Part shown: piece by piece, positions 14,689 through 57,954 of the stretch
Layout of the letters: each line of letters begins with the position of its first letter
Position numbering within the stretch: position 1 is the stretch's first letter
NCBI GenBank assembly: GCA_913774955.1
Contig: CAJYKV010000003.1
Span: 1-64,000 of the forward strand
DNA length: 64,000 nucleotides
Direction of reading: 5' to 3'
DNA from: an uncultured Acidovorax sp.
Lineage (GTDB): Bacteria; Pseudomonadota; Gammaproteobacteria; Burkholderiales; Burkholderiaceae_C
The notes under the pieces: model-generated
Seen by the model: the letters and a program-made list of their open reading frames with translations, nothing else
Database searches by the model: none
Told to the model about the DNA's origin: nothing
Translations under genes and position numbers: made by a program

Positions 14689-15078
14689 TTGCGCGCCACA
14701 AACACCCAAGACTTCTACCTCGCATACATCGCTTGTCTCAATGCGCAGGACTGGTCCCGGCTGGGCGACTTCGTTCAGGCCGACGTGCGCCACAACGACC
14801 GCCCACTCGGTCTGGCGGGCTATCGGGCGATGCTCGAAAACGACTTCGCCAGGATTCCGGACCTGCGCTATGAAGTGGAGTTGCTGGTCGCCGATGTGCA
14901 CTGCGTGGGAAGCCGGCTCAGGTTCAACTGCTCGCCGCAAGGCGAGTTCCTGGGGCTGCCCGTGAACGGCAGGAGGGTCGTGTTCTCGGAGAACGTGTTC
15001 TACGAACTCCGCGATGGCAAGATCGCCCGGGTCTGGTCCGTCATCGACAAGTCGGCAATCGAAGCGCAACTGGGCTGA
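14689..15078 (+). CDS. SnoaL-like / ester cyclase fold protein (NTF2-like)
   Basis: 129 residues using a TTG start, with GGAG at 14678-14681; no ATG is available in frame. TQDFYLAYIACLNAQDWSRL at the start, YRAMLENDFARIPDLRYEV and FYELRDGKIARVWSVIDK at the end are typical of SnoaL-like polyketide cyclase/NTF2-fold proteins. The family includes enzymes and binding proteins, so the reaction is unknown. It is the last chromosomal gene before phage remnants begin, six bases downstream. Confidence 0.8.
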   Translation: MRATNTQDFYLAYIACLNAQDWSRLGDFVQADVRHNDRPLGLAGYRAMLENDFARIPDLRYEVELLVADVHCVGSRLRFNCSPQGEFLGLPVNGRRVVFSENVFYELRDGKIARVWSVIDKSAIEAQLG

Positions 15079-15083
15079 GCTGG

Positions 15084-15185
15084 AGCGGTGCCCTGGCCGC
15101 AGCGCGCTCCGAGCAGGGCCGCATCCGAGGCGGCGTTCCGATGAAGGACAACCACGTCCTGCGAAAGCGCCGGCTGCACGGATAA
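15084..15185 (+). pseudogene. D: remnant of P2-type late control gene D, internally deleted 3' end
   Basis: In one frame 15090-15185 reads ALAAARSEQGRI followed by RGGVPMKDNHVLRKRRLHG and a stop. The intact prophage protein D (44087-45136) contains ALAAARAEQGRI and ends RGGVPKKRNHVLRKRRLHG, but with about 67 residues between them. This is therefore the scar of another P2-like prophage whose D gene lost its 5' part and an internal segment. Sixteen of the last eighteen residues match. Confidence 0.85.
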
Positions 15186-15238
15186 TCGTATGTACAAAAA
15201 GTCTTGCTCACGAGACATATCGTACATACAATAAGTAC
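15186..15238 (+). promoter_or_regulatory. brnTA promoter/operator candidate
   Basis: GTATGTAC at 15188-15195 is the exact reverse complement of GTACATAC at 15222-15229, with a further GTAC at 15235-15238 just before the toxin start. The dyad brackets the likely promoter and fits autorepression by the BrnA antitoxin or the BrnT-BrnA complex. Confidence 0.6.
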
Positions 15239-15508
15239 ATGGAAATCGAGTTCGATACCGGAAAGGATGAGGTGAACATCGCCAAGCACGGCGTCTCCCT
15301 CGCCTTGGCCAGCAGCATCGAATGGAGCGATGTCCTGTGCGTGCCCGACAGCAGGCGTGATTACGGCGAAGTGCGAGAAATCGGGTTCGCTGTCATCGAC
15401 CGTCGGTTGTACGTGGTGGTGTTCGTGCAGCGCGGCGAGGTGATGCGCATCATCAGCCTGCGCAAGGCCAACAGCCGAGAGGTGAAGCTGTATGACGAAG
15501 CGATCTAA
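15239..15508 (+). CDS. brnT: BrnT family toxin
   Basis: 89 residues starting MEIEFDTGKDEVNIAKHGVS, with the conserved DxxKxxxNxxKHG-like opening, then YGEVREIGFAVIDRRLYVVV and MRIISLRKANSREVKLYD near the C terminus. BrnT is a RelE-fold ribonuclease that stops translation. Its 3' end overlaps the antitoxin start by 17 bases, the usual BrnT-BrnA coupling. The pair lies immediately after a phage gene D remnant, the same location where the intact prophage carries cargo. Confidence 0.93.
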   Translation: MEIEFDTGKDEVNIAKHGVSLALASSIEWSDVLCVPDSRRDYGEVREIGFAVIDRRLYVVVFVQRGEVMRIISLRKANSREVKLYDEAI

Positions 15509-15788
15509 GAACCTGGGCCTGATCGTGCCCACCGCTGCGGAAGATGCCGCCATTGCTGCGGGCATCGCGCAGGATCAAGACACGGAGGAAATCACCGCGG
15601 CTGAAATGGCCGCCATGAAGCCACTGCGCCGCATGGGTCGGCCTCCAGTGGAGCGTCCCAAGGTGCCTGTGACGGTGCGCGTGGATGCCGATGTGCTCGA
15701 GGCCATCAAGGAAACCGGCCCGGGCTGGCAAACCCGGGTCAATGACCTGTTGCGCGACGGAGTGCGGCGCGGGAAGCTGGCGGCCTGA
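15492..15788 (+). CDS. brnA: BrnA family antitoxin
   Basis: 98 residues: a variable N-terminal half (with EEITAAEMAAMKPLR) that wraps the toxin, then VTVRVDADVLEAIKETGPGW and QTRVNDLLRDGV, a ribbon-helix-helix DNA-binding domain. It neutralises BrnT and represses the operon, probably at the dyad at 15188-15229. Intact in length and frame. Confidence 0.93.
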   Translation: MTKRSKNLGLIVPTAAEDAAIAAGIAQDQDTEEITAAEMAAMKPLRRMGRPPVERPKVPVTVRVDADVLEAIKETGPGWQTRVNDLLRDGVRRGKLAA

Positions 15789-15827
15789 CACTGGACGATC
15801 GGGCAATGTGCATGCATCCGTGGGAAT

Positions 15828-16301
15828 GCGGCCCCTGCCGGCACGACTTTGGCCAACGTGGACGCCGACCTGCAAAAGGCGATGGAACTGCTGACCGCAG
15901 CGAAGGGCGGGCTGCGCGATGCGGTGCGGGTTCCGTCGCCCGAGGCTGCGGGGACGATGGCTGCCATGCGCGGCACAGGCGGCGCACTAGCCTATCCAGA
16001 CATTGGCCCGAATGGCGGCCAGATCATGAAGATCCCGGCGATCACCAGCGAATCTGCAGCCGGGTATCTCGGGCTGCTGGATCAACGCGGCTTGCTGGTC
16101 AACTCTGATGCGCGCACGACCATCGCACTCAGCCACAACACCACGTTGCAGATGACGGATGCGCCGACCACCGCGCCCGCCGCCCCCATCGAGCTGGTGA
16201 GCATGTTCACCACCGAGAGCGTTGCGTTCAAGGCGGTGCTGTACCGTGGCTGGCAGCCCCGTGCAGGCGCAGGTGCGTACATCGCAGGAGGCATCTGGTG
16301 A
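15828..16301 (+). pseudogene. 5'-truncated phage major capsid protein (HK97 type)
   Basis: The frame is open from 15789 but has no proper start; recognisable sequence begins at about 15849 with NVDADLQKAMELLTAAKGGL. It ends with SHNTTLQMTDAPT and FTTESVAFKAVLYRGWQ, as in the C-terminal third of HK97-fold capsid proteins of tailed phages. Roughly half the gene is missing. It belongs to a phage type different from P2, whose capsid (25274) is unrelated in sequence, so at least two dead phages contributed to this zone. Confidence 0.6.
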
Positions 16302-18758: not shown

Positions 18759-18773
18759 CTGGCGGAGACTGTG
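18759..18773. repeat. attL core, 15-bp direct repeat
   Basis: CTGGCGGAGACTGTG, identical to 57866-57880 at the tRNA-Ser 3' end. Similarity also extends leftward through an equivalent terminator and a GCGCTTGTT tract, but with mismatches, so the exact crossover lies within the 15 bases. Confidence 0.85.
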
Positions 18774-19373
18774 TCATCCGCAGGCCTAGCAAATACGCGC
18801 CACAGAGCGCGATTAGGCTTCACTGTAGGCCATACCGTGGGCCATCAAAATTAGGCGCCTCCACGGGCCAGGAAAGGGCCTTGCCGAGCCTTCAGCGGCA
18901 GGGAGAACGCGGGCATCTGGCAACGCGTCAGATTCCGACGAAACCCGACACCGAAAGCCACCCCCAAAACGCCCGCGGGCCCGCGCCGGGCCTCGCCGGG
19001 CGTTGTGCCGGCACCACCGACGAAATCGACACATCAAGCGAGCGGGCGCGGCGGGGTCTCGACCGCGCGCCGAGGGTCAAACCCGCCCATACGAGGCAGG
19101 CGTAGGAGGGGGCCGGGGCAGGCGTATGGGGGTGCGCGAAGGCCCCCAGGAGGGCCGTAGAGCGACGAGCGGAGGCAAGGCAGGGGCCGAAGGGGTGCAC
19201 GATCGTTGGAGGCCCTGGCGGGACGTGCCGGCCGAGGGCCACGGGGCGCGTCCTCAATCGAAAGCGCTTGCGTCACTCCGGAAACCGGAGTAATAATGCA
19301 GCCATGGCGGTCGCAGTGACCACCAACACCCACCGGCGGTGCATAGCCGGCAAATCCTCTTAGGAGTCGAACC
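18774..19373. other. GC-rich gene-free segment; possible packaging (cos) region
   Basis: About 600 bases between attL and the first prophage gene, extremely GC-rich at 18930-19260, with no ORF I can support. In P2 the cos site lies just before gene Q at the end of the late block, and this is the corresponding position. On the minus strand GGCGAGGC at 18990-18997 equals the first eight bases of the P2 cos overhang, but the match stops there. The assignment is an inference from position. Confidence 0.35.
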
Positions 19374-19589
19374 ATGCGCCAATACGCCGTATACCAACCC
19401 GTCGCCGGGGGCACCGCGTTTTTCAACCCTCTGCACTTCGCTATCCCGGCCGTTGGCGATGTGGTGCATGAGCACAGCGTCCTTCTGGTCGGGACGCTGC
19501 ATGAGGCGGAAGAAAAGGTGGCCGCCATAAACGCCGCACTCCCGCAGATGCCGACGTTCGGCGAGTTGCTCGGCGATGCCGCAGTTTGA
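19374..19589 (+). CDS. small hypothetical protein upstream of the AcrVA2-like gene
   Basis: 71 residues, with an AGGAG site ahead of the ATG. It begins MRQYAVYQPVAGGTAFFNPL and has a helix HEAEEKVAAINAALPQM. No family is recognised. It overlaps the start of the next gene by 14 bases, so the two are translated together, and it could be a further host-interaction protein of the same operon. Confidence 0.6.
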   Translation: MRQYAVYQPVAGGTAFFNPLHFAIPAVGDVVHEHSVLLVGTLHEAEEKVAAINAALPQMPTFGELLGDAAV

Positions 19590-20625
19590 TCGACACGTCC
19601 ACCGGGCCCGCACTCACCTGCAGGCCCTGTCCGCCCGCTACACGCATGCGTGGCAATACTGCGAGCGATTCAGGGAGAACGCGGACTGGCCCGAGTGGTG
19701 TTTTCTGCCGATGCCCGGTTGGGCCGCTGCTCAGGCAGCATGCGTCGGGCGGCACCCATCGCGAACGGCGCTTGATTCGAGCGCCGTGCTCGACACGGCA
19801 AAGCTGGCAGCCCTGGGCGCGTGGCGCATGACGCAGGGTATCTACCGTTTCGATGCTGGCGTCTATTCAGCCGTGGCGGAAACGCCGATGGAACGAGACA
19901 TCCCGGCTGATGTGCTCACACGTATGCCGGAGTGGTGCATCTACGTGGAAACCCCAGGGCATCGCTATCGGGGATTGGATGTGGCGGGCGCCTGGGTGCA
20001 CCTTGACCATGGGACGCGCACGGGCCAGACCAAGCTGCGCCTGCTGGTCGACACAGGCCCAGGTCTGGAAGATCTGATCCCGTTGGGCGCGCCACTGGTG
20101 GGCACGCTCCAGCGCTCTATAGACGAGGCTGTGACGTTATCAGCGCTGCAGCTCGGGCATCACGGGCAGGCCATGCCGGACATCAGGCGCGAGGGGGCCG
20201 AGATCGTGAGCACTCTTGGGCCTATCGTCTCCCTCGTGCTCTACGTCTGCAGCGCCGGGGCGGAAATCACGCAGCGAGGCAAGCCACTGCGGCCGGGCAA
20301 TCCGGAACCGCAGCGCACCCGACGGCATGGCACCAAGCTGTTCCCCGCGGCCGGCCCGCGCGAGTGGGATGTGGGTGTGCGCATGGGCGCGGCATTGCGC
20401 GCGGCGTACGCCGCCGAATCAGGCGAAGGCCGTGAACACCAGGGACCGCGAGGGCACATCCGGCGTGCGCATTGGCACGGATTCCGGACAGGGGCGCTCA
20501 AGCGCGAAGACGGCTCCGCGATCGCTGCAGCTGATCGACCGCTCGAAGTCCGGTGGATGCCGCCCATACCAGTCAATCTGCCCGACGTGGACAGCCTGCC
20601 GGCTACTGTGAGGCCCGTGAAATGA
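19576..20625 (+). CDS. AcrVA2-family anti-CRISPR candidate
   Basis: 349 residues. The landmarks match Moraxella AcrVA2 in order: a CFLPMP segment near residue 42, LGAWRMTQGIYRFD near 80, MPEWCIYVET near 117, LVLYVCSAGAEITQRGKPL past the middle, and HIRRAHWHGF near 294 followed by EVRWMPPIPVN at the end. AcrVA2 blocks Cas12a production by recognising the nascent Cas12a N terminus and triggering loss of its mRNA. Homologues occur in bacteria without Cas12a, so the target here is uncertain. It overlaps the following helix-turn-helix gene by ATGA. Confidence 0.8.
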   Translation: MPQFDRHVHRARTHLQALSARYTHAWQYCERFRENADWPEWCFLPMPGWAAAQAACVGRHPSRTALDSSAVLDTAKLAALGAWRMTQGIYRFDAGVYSAVAETPMERDIPADVLTRMPEWCIYVETPGHRYRGLDVAGAWVHLDHGTRTGQTKLRLLVDTGPGLEDLIPLGAPLVGTLQRSIDEAVTLSALQLGHHGQAMPDIRREGAEIVSTLGPIVSLVLYVCSAGAEITQRGKPLRPGNPEPQRTRRHGTKLFPAAGPREWDVGVRMGAALRAAYAAESGEGREHQGPRGHIRRAHWHGFRTGALKREDGSAIAAADRPLEVRWMPPIPVNLPDVDSLPATVRPVK

Positions 20626-20843
20626 CGTCTACAGAACTCCGGGCCTGGCAGGAAAGCATGGGCTACAGCTACGCGCAGGCCTGCGCCGAGCTGGGCGTGG
20701 GCAGCTCCACTTACGCGGACATGCTTTCCGGGGCCGCGAAGATCAACCGGCGCACGGCGCTCGCGTGCTCTGCGCTCTCCGCCGGGCTCGGCGAGTGGGC
20801 ACCGATAGCGGCCGAAGAGGACACGCCGAGCGAGCAGGGATAG
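20622..20843 (+). CDS. helix-turn-helix regulator, Aca-like
   Basis: 73 residues. ELRAWQESMGYSYAQACAEL followed by GVGSSTYADMLSGAAKINRR is a compact Cro/XRE-type helix-turn-helix occupying nearly the whole protein. It begins inside the stop codon of the AcrVA2-like gene (ATGA overlap). Small HTH genes directly downstream of anti-CRISPR genes are often Aca proteins that repress the acr operon after infection; that role is inferred here. No dyad was pinned down upstream of 19374. Confidence 0.75.
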   Translation: MTSTELRAWQESMGYSYAQACAELGVGSSTYADMLSGAAKINRRTALACSALSAGLGEWAPIAAEEDTPSEQG

Positions 20844-52776: not shown

Positions 52777-53022
52777 ATGGCCATCAAGAGCAAGCCCGCT
52801 GCCCTGGGCCATCCAGTGGGCGCCGAGAAATGGGCGCAGATCCGCGCCGCGGAGCGCGTGAGCTACAGCGGCCCCTACGGCGTCGCGCAGCCGCCGCAGA
52901 TGTCGTGGAAAACGGGCGGCCCCTACACATGCCCGGAGCTGCACCACCGCAGCCAGGCCGACCGGTACCCCAGCGTCATTGCCGGCCGCCGTGTCATGAG
53001 GGGGAGCCGCGATGCAGGCTGA
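52777..53022 (+). CDS. small hypothetical protein
   Basis: 81 residues, PVGAEKWAQIRAAERVSYSG and CPELHHRSQADRYPSVIAGR. Its end overlaps the methyltransferase start by 11 bases. Function unknown. Confidence 0.5.
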   Translation: MAIKSKPAALGHPVGAEKWAQIRAAERVSYSGPYGVAQPPQMSWKTGGPYTCPELHHRSQADRYPSVIAGRRVMRGSRDAG

Positions 53023-53818
53023 TGCGCAGCCGCCCGCATGGCAGCTGATGCAGGGCGAAAGCATCGCGCTGCTGGGCCGCATGGTCGACGGCAGCGTCGA
53101 TGCCGTCATCACCGATCCGCCCTACAGCAGCGGCGGATTCACCCGGGACGACAAGAGCAAGGCGCCGGAACTGAAGTATCAACAGACCGGCCTTGAGGAC
53201 AAGTACCCCACCTTCGGCGGCGACTCTCGAGACCAGCGTAGCTACCTCGCATGGTGCGCGCTGTGGATCACCGAATGCGTGCGAGTACTTAAGCCTGGCG
53301 GCTACTTCATGGCGTTCACAGACTGGCGGCAGCTGCCCGTGCTGAGCGACGCAGTGCAGGCGGGCGGCGTTTACTGGCGCGGCGTGGTGGCATGGAACAA
53401 GGGGCGCGGCTCCCGCGCTCCGCACAAGGGCTACTTCCGCCACCAGTGCGAGTACGTCGTATGGGGTACCAAGGGGCCAGCCCTGCAGTTGAGCCACGAC
53501 GGGCCATTCGATGGATGCATCCATGCGCCGGTGCGCCAGGACGACAAGCACCACATGACGGGCAAGCCGACAGCGCTCATGTGCGAGCTGGTCAGGCCGG
53601 TGGCACCGGGCGGCTTGATCCTCGATCCGTTCGCCGGCAGCGGCACCACTGGCGTGGCGGCGGTGATGACGGGGCGCCGATTCATCGGCATCGAGCGGGA
53701 AGCGGCCTACGCCGAAATCTCCCGCACGCGACTGCGCGAGGCCGAACTGCAGACAGCGCTGATGGGCGCCTTCAGCAGCCCTTCGCCACAAGAGCAAACC
53801 ACCATCCAAGGAACTTGA
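53012..53818 (+). CDS. DNA methyltransferase, DPPY type (N6-adenine or N4-cytosine)
   Basis: 268 residues. The catalytic motif IV AVITDPPYSSGG is at residues about 32-43 and the SAM-binding motif I DPFAGSGTTGVAA near 205, the order of the beta class. KPGGYFMAFTDWRQLP and HMTGKPTALMCELV complete the fold. DPPY favours adenine-N6. No restriction partner is present, so it probably protects phage DNA or regulates it. The recognition sequence is unknown. Confidence 0.93.
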   Translation: MQADAQPPAWQLMQGESIALLGRMVDGSVDAVITDPPYSSGGFTRDDKSKAPELKYQQTGLEDKYPTFGGDSRDQRSYLAWCALWITECVRVLKPGGYFMAFTDWRQLPVLSDAVQAGGVYWRGVVAWNKGRGSRAPHKGYFRHQCEYVVWGTKGPALQLSHDGPFDGCIHAPVRQDDKHHMTGKPTALMCELVRPVAPGGLILDPFAGSGTTGVAAVMTGRRFIGIEREAAYAEISRTRLREAELQTALMGAFSSPSPQEQTTIQGT

Positions 53819-56272: not shown

Positions 56273-56505
56273 CCGCCATGCGCATCACACTTTCGAAAGA
56301 ACAGCTCCTAGAAGAGCTGGACATCGTAGAAAACACCCTGCGTGCGCTGATCGACAAGCGCGCGTTCCCCCACCCTCGCAAGATCGGCCCGACGAAAATC
56401 CGCTGGCTGGTTGCCGAGGTGGTGGAATGGCTGCAGGCCCAGCCGAAGGCCTGGACCAACTTGGCGCCCGGTCAGGACGACGAGGCCGGCGCCGGCAACG
56501 CGTAG
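56269..56505 (+). CDS. AlpA/excisionase-like winged-helix protein
   Basis: 78 residues: ITLSKEQLLEELDIVENTLR, FPHPRKIGPTKIRWLVAEVV and EWLQAQPKAW form the MerR-type winged helix of AlpA and phage excisionases. Its 3' end overlaps the integrase 3' end (convergent). A directionality factor for integrase is inferred. Confidence 0.8.
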   Translation: MTAMRITLSKEQLLEELDIVENTLRALIDKRAFPHPRKIGPTKIRWLVAEVVEWLQAQPKAWTNLAPGQDDEAGAGNA

Positions 56506-57677
56506 TCGGCCCACTCCTGCATGATGACGGTCCGCTTTTCCAGCATGTCGCCGCGCCGGTACGCGGCTTCCGTCTTAGTGTCGATCGCGTGCGCGAGGCA
56601 CAGCTCGATGGCGTCGCGCGGATGGCTGGTCATTTCGCCCGCCCAATCCCGGAACGTCGATCGGAAGCCGTGCGGCACGGCTTCGAATTCGTGCCGGCGC
56701 ATGAGCTGGGTCAGCGCCATGTCCGACAGCGGCCCGCGCCTGTTGGACGGAAACACATAGTCCACATCGGGCAGCCGCGGCTGGGCCTTGAGCAGCGCCA
56801 CAGCCTGCCGCGAAAGCGGCACGCGGTGTTCCTTCTTCCCCTTCATCCGCTCCGGCGGTACGACCCACAGCGCGCCGTCCAGGTCGATTTCCGACCAGGT
56901 TGCGCCCCGCACCTCGCCCGACCGCGCCGCGGTCAGCACCAGGAAGCACAGCGCCCGCGCGCTCTGCCCCTCGATCGCGGCAATCTGCTGGTACACGGCA
57001 GGCAGATCGGCGACGTCCACGGCGGGGTGGTGCTTCACGGGCGCCACCTTCGACGGGTCGGCCAGGATGTGTTCCAGCTGTCCGCGCCATCGCGCTGGGT
57101 TCGTGCCCGTGCGGTAGCCATGGGCGGTCGCCCAGTCCAGAATCTGTTCGATGCGGCCGCGCAGGCGGGTCGCGGTTTCCGTCTTCACCTTCCAGATCGG
57201 TGCCAGCGCGCGCAGCACCCGCGCTTGATCAATCTCCGAAACGGGGACGTGGCCGAAGTGGGGTGAAGCGTAGGTGGCAAGGGTGCTGCGCCACTGTTGG
57301 GTGTGCTTGAGACTGCGCCATGTCGATTCGTGCTCGCGGATGTACTCGGCGGCGGCCTCATCGAAGGGCACCCGCTGGGCCGCGGCAAGACGCACCGTCT
57401 CGCGCTCGGCCTCACGCATTACGAGCGGATCTTTTCCCGAGTCGCGCAGCTTGAGCGCGGCCCTGGCGTCATCGCGGGCCGCGGCGAGCGAAACGCCGGG
57501 GTAGCTGCCCAAACCCATGCGCCGGCGGGCACGGGCGAAAACGTACCGCAGAACCCAAGAGCGAGAGCCGCCCTCGATCCGGAGATACAGCCCGCTCGCG
57601 CCGCCCACGGCATGCGATCCCTCCGCTTTGAGCCGTGACACTTCCAACGCGGTCAGTTCGCGCGCACGCTTCGGCAT
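56472..57677 (-). CDS. int: tyrosine integrase (DUF4102 type)
   Basis: 401 residues from the ATG at 57677 (MPKRARELTALEVSRLKAEG); the 22 residues upstream in frame are not family-like. N-terminal DUF4102 arm-binding domain with GASGLYLRIEGGSRSWVLRY, a core-binding region, and the catalytic R (AARSGEVRGA), HxxR (PHGFRSTFRDW), H (LAHAI) and Y (AAYRRGD) residues near 250, 335, 355 and 372. P4-like integrases of this type use tRNA 3' ends; the gene points away from the adjacent tRNA-Ser. Confidence 0.95.
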   Translation of the reverse strand: MPKRARELTALEVSRLKAEGSHAVGGASGLYLRIEGGSRSWVLRYVFARARRRMGLGSYPGVSLAAARDDARAALKLRDSGKDPLVMREAERETVRLAAAQRVPFDEAAAEYIREHESTWRSLKHTQQWRSTLATYASPHFGHVPVSEIDQARVLRALAPIWKVKTETATRLRGRIEQILDWATAHGYRTGTNPARWRGQLEHILADPSKVAPVKHHPAVDVADLPAVYQQIAAIEGQSARALCFLVLTAARSGEVRGATWSEIDLDGALWVVPPERMKGKKEHRVPLSRQAVALLKAQPRLPDVDYVFPSNRRGPLSDMALTQLMRRHEFEAVPHGFRSTFRDWAGEMTSHPRDAIELCLAHAIDTKTEAAYRRGDMLEKRTVIMQEWADYALPAPASSS

Positions 57678-57827
57678 CAGCGGTTTCCGTAGGCCATACA
57701 GTAGGCCAAAAAAATTTGGATTGCGCGTGATAAGCGGCTGCATGGCCGCTGCATAAATACTGTATATAACACCATGAAATCAAGCGTAACACGTTGATAT
57801 TTCACGGTCAATGCCACCTCCGGCGCG
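57678..57827. promoter_or_regulatory. integrase upstream region with repeats
   Basis: AT-rich upstream of int. GTAGGCCATACA and GTAGGCCAAAAA are direct repeats near 57690-57710; GCGGC-TGCATG-GCCGC forms a dyad near 57735-57750. They may be integrase or excisionase arm sites. Confidence 0.4.
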
Positions 57828-57865: not shown

Positions 57866-57880
57866 CTGGCGGAGACTGTG
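57866..57880. repeat. attR core, 15-bp direct repeat in tRNA-Ser
   Basis: CTGGCGGAGACTGTG, identical to 18759-18773; it includes the CCA end and acceptor stem of the tRNA, which the phage sequence restores. Confidence 0.88.
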
Positions 57881-57954
57881 AGATTCGAACTCACGGACGG
57901 TTGCCCGTCGGCAGTTTTCAAGACTGCTGGTTTAAACCGCTCACCCAAGTCTCC
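57867..57954 (-). tRNA. tRNA-Ser (anticodon TGA)
   Basis: On the minus strand: acceptor GGAGACT pairing with AGTCTCC, discriminator G and encoded CCA; anticodon stem GCAGT/ACTGC with loop CTTGAAA, anticodon TGA; long variable arm (CGACGGGCAACCGTCC region) as in class II tRNAs; GTTCGAATC T loop. 88 bases with CCA. It is the integration site of the prophage. Confidence 0.97.

Follow-up and report, generated by a model that had tools for sequence, protein, structure and literature searches.

The DNA analyzed here, a stretch of 64,000 nucleotides that we refer to as the window, carries three overlapping genes on the forward strand at the edge of a prophage. The first gene (19374-19589) encodes a protein of 71 residues, which matched no Pfam family and has a homolog in locus L016 (E 3e-6); by eye, locus L210 carries a close copy of the L016 gene. 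The second gene (19576-20625) encodes a protein of 349 residues that homology, profile comparison and fold place in a family with AcrVA2 and FinQ. The third gene (20622-20843) encodes a helix-turn-helix (HTH) protein of 73 residues, a candidate Aca-like regulator that belongs to a cluster of seven HTH proteins. The sequence ATGA at 20622-20625 is the overlap of the second and third genes. An earlier note on this DNA had described this layout, including an HTH gene that adjoins in the manner of acr-aca operons, and both observations were confirmed by the ATGA overlap and the seven-member cluster.

Position in a P2-like prophage

The attL core (18759-18773, CTGGCGGAGACTGTG) is a 15-bp repeat of the 3' end of tRNA-Ser, and its exact partner, the attR core, is located at 57866-57880 in the tRNA-Ser (57867-57954). 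The prophage integrase adjoins it on the reverse strand (56472-57743; phrog_1, E 2e-48). The att repeats, the tRNA-Ser and the integrase delimit a prophage of approximately 39 kb, in which portal, terminase, scaffold, P2-family capsid, gpD and gpA-like proteins were all found. These features bear out the proposed location beside attL of a P2-like prophage. The operon begins approximately 0.6 kb inside attL and has the portal gene on its other side. Relatives of the second gene occupy similar edge positions: the gene of Moraxella phage Mcat4 is near attL, that of Lactobacillus phage JCL1032 is near attP and the integrase, and that of a Pasteurella Peduoviridae phage adjoins the integrase.

Other accessory genes were observed in the window. 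To the left of attL, positions 15014-16301 contain a gene for a BrnT-type toxin (PF04365, E 6.5e-20), one for an antitoxin (phrog_4692) and a phage-like fragment (phrog_6538). A DNA methyltransferase gene, possibly protective, is located near the integrase end of the prophage (53012-53818; phrog_67, E 5.7e-69).

The AcrVA2/FinQ family and its neighboring genes

The 349-residue protein matched AcrVA2 in a phmmer search (E 1.4e-18) and in a profile search (E 1.4e-65), and it has the AcrVA2 fold. Its identity to Moraxella AcrVA2 (PDB 7CI1, 7CI2) is 22%, and the range for AcrVA2 and its Moraxella phage homolog is 22-24%. The membership in the AcrVA2 family that had been read from the sequence alone thus holds in both the profile and the structure comparison proposed as checks. 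The protein is also related to FinQ of IncI plasmids, which inhibits the fertility of F (33% identity across 76% of the window protein, E 8e-24). FinQ is a fertility-inhibition factor that was sequenced in 1989, according to a reference in PMC8744291. By itself, FinQ matched the solved AcrVA2 (E 3.8e-17) and, in a pairwise comparison, the Mcat4 homolog (E 4e-18), and the kinship of FinQ and AcrVA2 is therefore independent of the window. Judged by these matches, FinQ is a member of the AcrVA2 family. No paper naming both proteins was found in the literature searched, the scope of which did not extend to bioRxiv and most subscription papers.

Relatives were detected by tblastn in 52 of 50,697 phage records and in 697 of 72,556 plasmid records, and 613 of these 697 were on plasmids typed as conjugative. 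Among the best 60 of the 697 plasmid records, 37 carry the FinQ annotation (fertility-inhibition protein, IncI-type plasmids). We took the best 80 of 117 relatives from each of two alignment scans; with other sources, the full set comprised 199 loci and 164 distinct proteins. In a tree, the window protein pairs with that of locus L006, from the same genus (72% identity, support 100), inside a set of 10 rows that includes a Pectobacterium plasmid (support 96). FinQ and the AcrVA2 homologs group on long branches with a support of only 33. At the E-values used, the protein fell into no family of Pfam, NCBIfam or PADLOC, and the search with PF18501 was uninformative since it gave zero matches anywhere.

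Several relatives occur in settings of their own. On a Thioflavicoccus plasmid (L034, 538-4014), brxL of a BREX locus, a small gene and an AcrVA2-like gene follow on the same strand, which shows that the family can travel with a defense system. Two close FinQ relatives (L037 and L106) are each preceded by a DUF2913-type gene, and in L037, a Salmonella plasmid, the gene is flanked by filamentous-haemagglutinin-type genes in a two-partner secretion locus. In Erwinia phage RisingSun (H51/H52), a member of the AcrVA2 family bears the annotation putative mycothiosynthase, a name that is probably wrong.

An open reading frame of at least 45 codons, beginning at most 60 nt from the stop codon of the AcrVA2-like gene, was present in 110 of 164 loci (by a heuristic choice of ORF). 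The commonest Pfam families among these 110 were HTH families, with raw counts of 9 for HTH_31 and 7 for HTH_3. In the cluster to which the window HTH protein belongs, genes start 1 to 14 nt before the end of the preceding stop codon. The idea of an Aca-like regulator held as far as the HTH neighbor is concerned, but not as a recognized Aca2: the window protein gave no match to PF08965 (Aca2_YdiL). Such Aca2/YdiL genes adjoin relatives, with PF08965 matches upstream of AcrVA2-like genes in L187 (E 1e-14) and in the P2-like Pasteurella phage locus L031 (E 3.2e-18). In the latter (phage vB_PmuM_CFP3, L031:1881-3235), the Aca2/YdiL gene is directly upstream of the AcrVA2-like gene and beside the integrase of this P2-like phage. 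A 2019 survey gave 0% as the share of AcrVA2 homologs in RefSeq with a neighboring Aca (PMC6739104).

Small operons with an HTH gene beside an acr gene are known as acr-aca operons, an example being acrIF8-aca2. The window operon is like them in its size, in the overlap of the HTH gene with the acr gene and in a palindrome within its candidate promoter. It differs in that its HTH protein is outside the Aca2 family and its leader RNA is of another type.

Candidate promoter, palindrome and leader

A candidate promoter was recognized by eye on the forward strand upstream of the first gene (19268-19297), with a -35 element TTGCGT (19268-19273), an 18-bp spacer and a -10 element AATAAT (19292-19297). 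A generic promoter scan of the window did not call it; the position of the -10 element is common to other loci that carry the leader described below. Inside the spacer is a candidate operator, ACTCCGG-aaa-CCGGAGT (19275-19291), which occurs in perfect form nowhere else in the window. The palindrome beside the -10 element (ACTCCGGaaaCCGGAGT) has counterparts at a similar place in other leader loci, with differing sequences. Perfect inverted repeats with arms of at least 5 were found 70 to 30 nt upstream of the leader core in 22 of 30 leader copies, compared with 6.6 in shuffled sequences (maximum 14 of 300) and 9.5 elsewhere in the same loci (maximum 16 of 300). In 18 of these 22 copies, the repeat ends beside the -10 element, 30-41 nt before the core. 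A -10-like hexamer matching at 5 or 6 of 6 positions was present 24-39 nt upstream of the core in 13 of 30 copies (control 0.4, maximum 4 of 500).

HTH genes are more frequent where the leader is present: they were found in 6 of 16 leader-bearing AcrVA2-like loci and in 8 of 140 others (Fisher p 8e-4, kinship ignored; 156 loci, with L007-L014 left out). The other 10 of the 16, including the closest relative L006, had no HTH match at E<1e-5 in the sequence examined (for L006, 1.5 kb on each side). Palindromes with arms of at least 6 occurred in 7 of 8 HTH-bearing leader loci versus 3 of 16 others (p 0.002; 0.007 with 4 of 17), a link that is only suggestive because the threshold was picked post hoc and L120 counts against it. 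The HTH match of L120 was below the threshold in the count (E 1.2e-4) and reached 6.4e-7 in its own scan.

Between the candidate promoter and the first gene is a leader with three elements, all on the forward strand: a hairpin, P0 (19309-19321, GGTCG-cag-TGACC); a core (19327-19350) with the pairing of an H-type pseudoknot, in which CACC (19327-19330) faces GGTG (19338-19341) and CCGGC (19333-19337) faces GCCGG (19346-19350); and a Shine-Dalgarno hairpin, CTC...GGAG (19357-19366). The order CACC-nn-CCGGC-GGTG-nnnn-GCCGG, CTC...GGAG, start codon is common to other loci. Compact H-type pseudoknots close to the Shine-Dalgarno sequence are known from the T4 gene 32 leader and the preQ1 and SAM-II riboswitches; the window leader is likewise compact and close to the Shine-Dalgarno sequence, and it matched nothing in Rfam at the thresholds applied. 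The best hit in 501 bases had an E-value of 3.6 and 13.3 of 43 bits, and eight loci gave only a tRNA.

The leader appears to fold as RNA. In 22 distinct cores, 97.9% of 195 cells are paired, and four pairs (eight cells) show changes on both sides, a number reached by 1 of 500 shuffles; none of 500 shuffles reached the covariation score. Pairing falls to 28-63% when the pseudoknot is slid by 1 to 3 columns. The CACC:GGTG pairing was outside the search model. A first alignment of 14 sequences, most of them obtained via the exact core, had zero covariation because its stems hardly vary. The P0 stem scored at least 5 (a wobble counting half) in 21 of 29 copies with differing sequences, against a mean of 3.5 in shuffles (maximum 8 of 300) and 5.5 elsewhere (maximum 11). 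Single-sequence folding was unremarkable in seven of eight copies (z -0.64 for the window). An ORF begins at the modeled start codon in all 29 copies taken as genuine, a count to be read with the facts that the model includes the ATG and that weak or leader-unlike matches had been excluded beforehand. By eye, the first genes after the leaders are mostly unrelated, and those of the window, L016 and L210 share a family. The leader counts are not fully independent, because copies share ancestry (L016 and L210; the pairs within L047 and G069).

A covariance model of the leader found, at E<1e-6, 20 copies in 16 distinct AcrVA2-like loci (82 and 80 sources searched), in each of which the leader is upstream of the AcrVA2-like gene on the same strand. 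The copy in L006 (E 5.7e-8) is from a congener, G013. In 15 of 19 further sources, the model gave zero matches at E up to 1. The leader is therefore not a mark of the whole family, since the FinQ, Moraxella, Lactobacillus, Leptospira, Pasteurella, Erwinia and Shewanella loci are among those without a match, phage and plasmid loci alike. The remaining 4 of the 19 sources gave L247, L248, L238 and L013 (E 0.14). A blastn search with the leader returned 0 records in the phage collection. In plasmids, it returned 8 and 3 records (E 0.1-0.5), which were short, came from unrelated organisms and were taken as chance.

The leader was also used without reference to the protein. Strong matches (E about 1e-9 or better) occurred in 3 of 299 genomes of the bacterial family: the window's own genome, G069 and G571. 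G069 was already known to have an AcrVA2-like gene, and G571 was reached from the leader alone. Both leader copies in G571 lie approximately 0.75 kb upstream of AcrVA2-like genes. This search used stricter filters, and G013 does not appear in its results, either because that genome was outside the sample or because the search missed it. Weaker matches in G026, G570 and G618 (E 5e-4 to 9e-4) were set aside; none has an AcrVA2-like gene, and by eye those of G026 (L226) and G618 (L228) look coding and that of G570 (L227) is not clear. The two loci of G571, L247 and L248, are near-identical and located approximately 59 kb apart on contig 1, at about 1996-1998 kb and at about 2055-2057 kb; the AcrVA2-like gene is open in one of them and split into two frames in the other.

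The exact core occurred in 13 viral contigs, 7 with an AcrVA2-like gene and 6 without one in the sequence examined. One of the latter, L212, is not leader-like and was dropped from the leader set because a start codon is absent at the usual distance. Neither of two exact core variants gave a match in the viral contigs. A looser core, with stem positions free, gave 20 stretches and 8 new contigs. Of these 8, only L238 has a Shine-Dalgarno sequence and a start codon at the usual distance; it has a new compensated pair, CCGCC:GGCGG, and the part examined yielded no AcrVA2-like gene at E 1e-3 (one match of 0.0014 on the opposite strand).

A second leader-like type (CCGGCGGAACCCGG or similar, a Shine-Dalgarno hairpin and a start codon) was observed in the AcrVA2-like loci L046, L127, L129, L131, L135, L139, L141 and L251-L253, the first seven of which are weak matches to the leader model. 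A search with its pattern (CCGGCGGAACCCGG...TCTC) gave five matches; the three with a Shine-Dalgarno sequence and start codon are all on contigs with AcrVA2-like genes, an association that is less independent because the pattern itself was read from AcrVA2-like loci.

The leader may represent a separate class of regulatory RNA. It could instead be no more than a signal in the DNA, or a strong but generic leader for ribosome binding in one group of elements, with no bearing on the control of AcrVA2-like genes. It does precede many unrelated small genes, is present twice in several elements, and has three invariant pairs among the nine of its core (two more depart by unpaired cells only). However, the compensatory changes, the adjacent hairpin of variable sequence and the link to AcrVA2-like loci that emerged from searches made independently of the protein make us regard this explanation as rather unlikely.

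Possible targets and mode of action

In the review PMC13131331, AcrVA2 is reported to recognize the nascent N-terminal LSKT of Cas12a and thereby bring about decay of Cas12a mRNA. FinQ is described as causing Rho-independent termination of tra transcription at multiple sites (PMC8744291). The effects of both can be viewed as loss of a chosen message, and one mechanism may underlie both; we offer this as a hypothesis because the described action of FinQ is at transcription termination and not at mRNA decay. The suggestion of a translation-coupled silencing activity, which had been raised beside that of another Cas protein as target, stands as a possible alternative. A scan of 33 F transfer proteins for LSKT-like targets (motif [LIVMF][ST][KR][ST] in residues 1-40) gave one match, trbB, which is at chance level (0.35 expected; 31% of draws as high) and was discarded as evidence.

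With about even confidence, we read the locus as an accessory operon at the attL edge, whose AcrVA2/FinQ-family protein silences a rival's message under the control of the HTH protein and the leader. The constraint on the family protein and the lack of Cas12a in the 50 carrier genomes are counted in favor of this reading. The low identity to AcrVA2, the chance-level result for F transfer proteins, the leader loci with no HTH match, the invariant core pairs, the unremarkable single-sequence folding and the family members with no leader match count against it. By analogy with AcrVA2, the 349-residue protein would most likely bind the emerging N-terminal peptide of one chosen target on the ribosome, and the target's mRNA would be lost; by analogy with FinQ, transcription of the target might be shortened. 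In either case, a rival function, from a defense gene or a gene of a competing mobile element, would not be made. The HTH product probably represses the promoter at the palindrome, the leader (about 19305-19373) probably controls access of ribosomes to the first gene, and the overlaps would couple translation of the second and third genes. We take the operon to be an autoregulated counter-defense or inter-element weapon.

A rival reading is that the protein acts like FinQ and silences genes that serve the transfer or maintenance of competing plasmids and integrative elements, and not a defense system. FinQ is a family member, the plasmid records with relatives are mostly typed as conjugative, and L006 is in a different context, by eye near a secretion-type ATPase gene. 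Yet the phage records with relatives include large lytic-type Erwinia phages, which would gain little from blocking conjugation, and the plasmid count is probably inflated by near-identical enterobacterial plasmids. The settings also differ: FinQ precedes trbA among the transfer genes of a conjugative plasmid and its locus lacks a leader match, whereas the window gene is at a prophage attL, outside a plasmid transfer region, and has the leader. We consider this reading possible but on the unlikely side.

Somewhat less probable is an anti-CRISPR that silences a cas gene of a non-Cas12a system of the genus through the nascent N-terminus of that gene's product. Cas1 was found in 12 of 17 genomes of the genus and in 30 of 50 genomes with an AcrVA2-like locus (a raw rate, in carriers only), Aca2-type regulators adjoin two relatives, and the attL-side position resembles that of the Mcat4 gene. 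However, Cas1 was not found in the window's own genome. Of the anti-CRISPR assignment made from the sequence, the kinship stood and the function stays putative: Cas12a and Cas1 were looked for in the same genome, and neither was found. The AcrVA2-family name is safe; the anti-CRISPR name is not.

A genuine Cas12a inhibitor like Moraxella AcrVA2, as homology and fold would suggest, is very improbable, in keeping with the earlier doubt about this target, because Cas12a was found in none of the 17 genus genomes (own genome included) and none of the 50 carriers (part of 74 selected loci, from the 80 best relatives), with a model that works, since it matched in 1 of 369 genomes of the class. The window operon further differs from the Mcat4 locus, which has no leader match, in having its own HTH partner and leader.

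Returning to the silencing of rival messages, we propose more tentatively, and with somewhat less than even confidence, that AcrVA2 and FinQ are two known representatives of a single wide family, whose members silence messages by way of the nascent peptide and are aimed by mobile elements at chosen rival genes. Part of this family (16 of 156 loci, mainly in Proteobacteria) would be under an undescribed class of pseudoknot leader and under palindromic operators, each diverging along with its HTH repressor, and the leader could be used to find new members.

The kinship with FinQ, the conserved leader and the operator-like palindrome extend what had been noted for this DNA. The family occurs widely, in 697 plasmid and 52 phage records, and is unlinked from Cas12a in the 50 genomes tested, and the leader provides a second handle, independent of the protein, for finding such operons. 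Should one mechanism underlie FinQ and AcrVA2, a fertility-inhibition factor of 1989 and a recent mRNA-destroying anti-CRISPR would explain each other, and the target of FinQ in the F tra operon would become directly testable.
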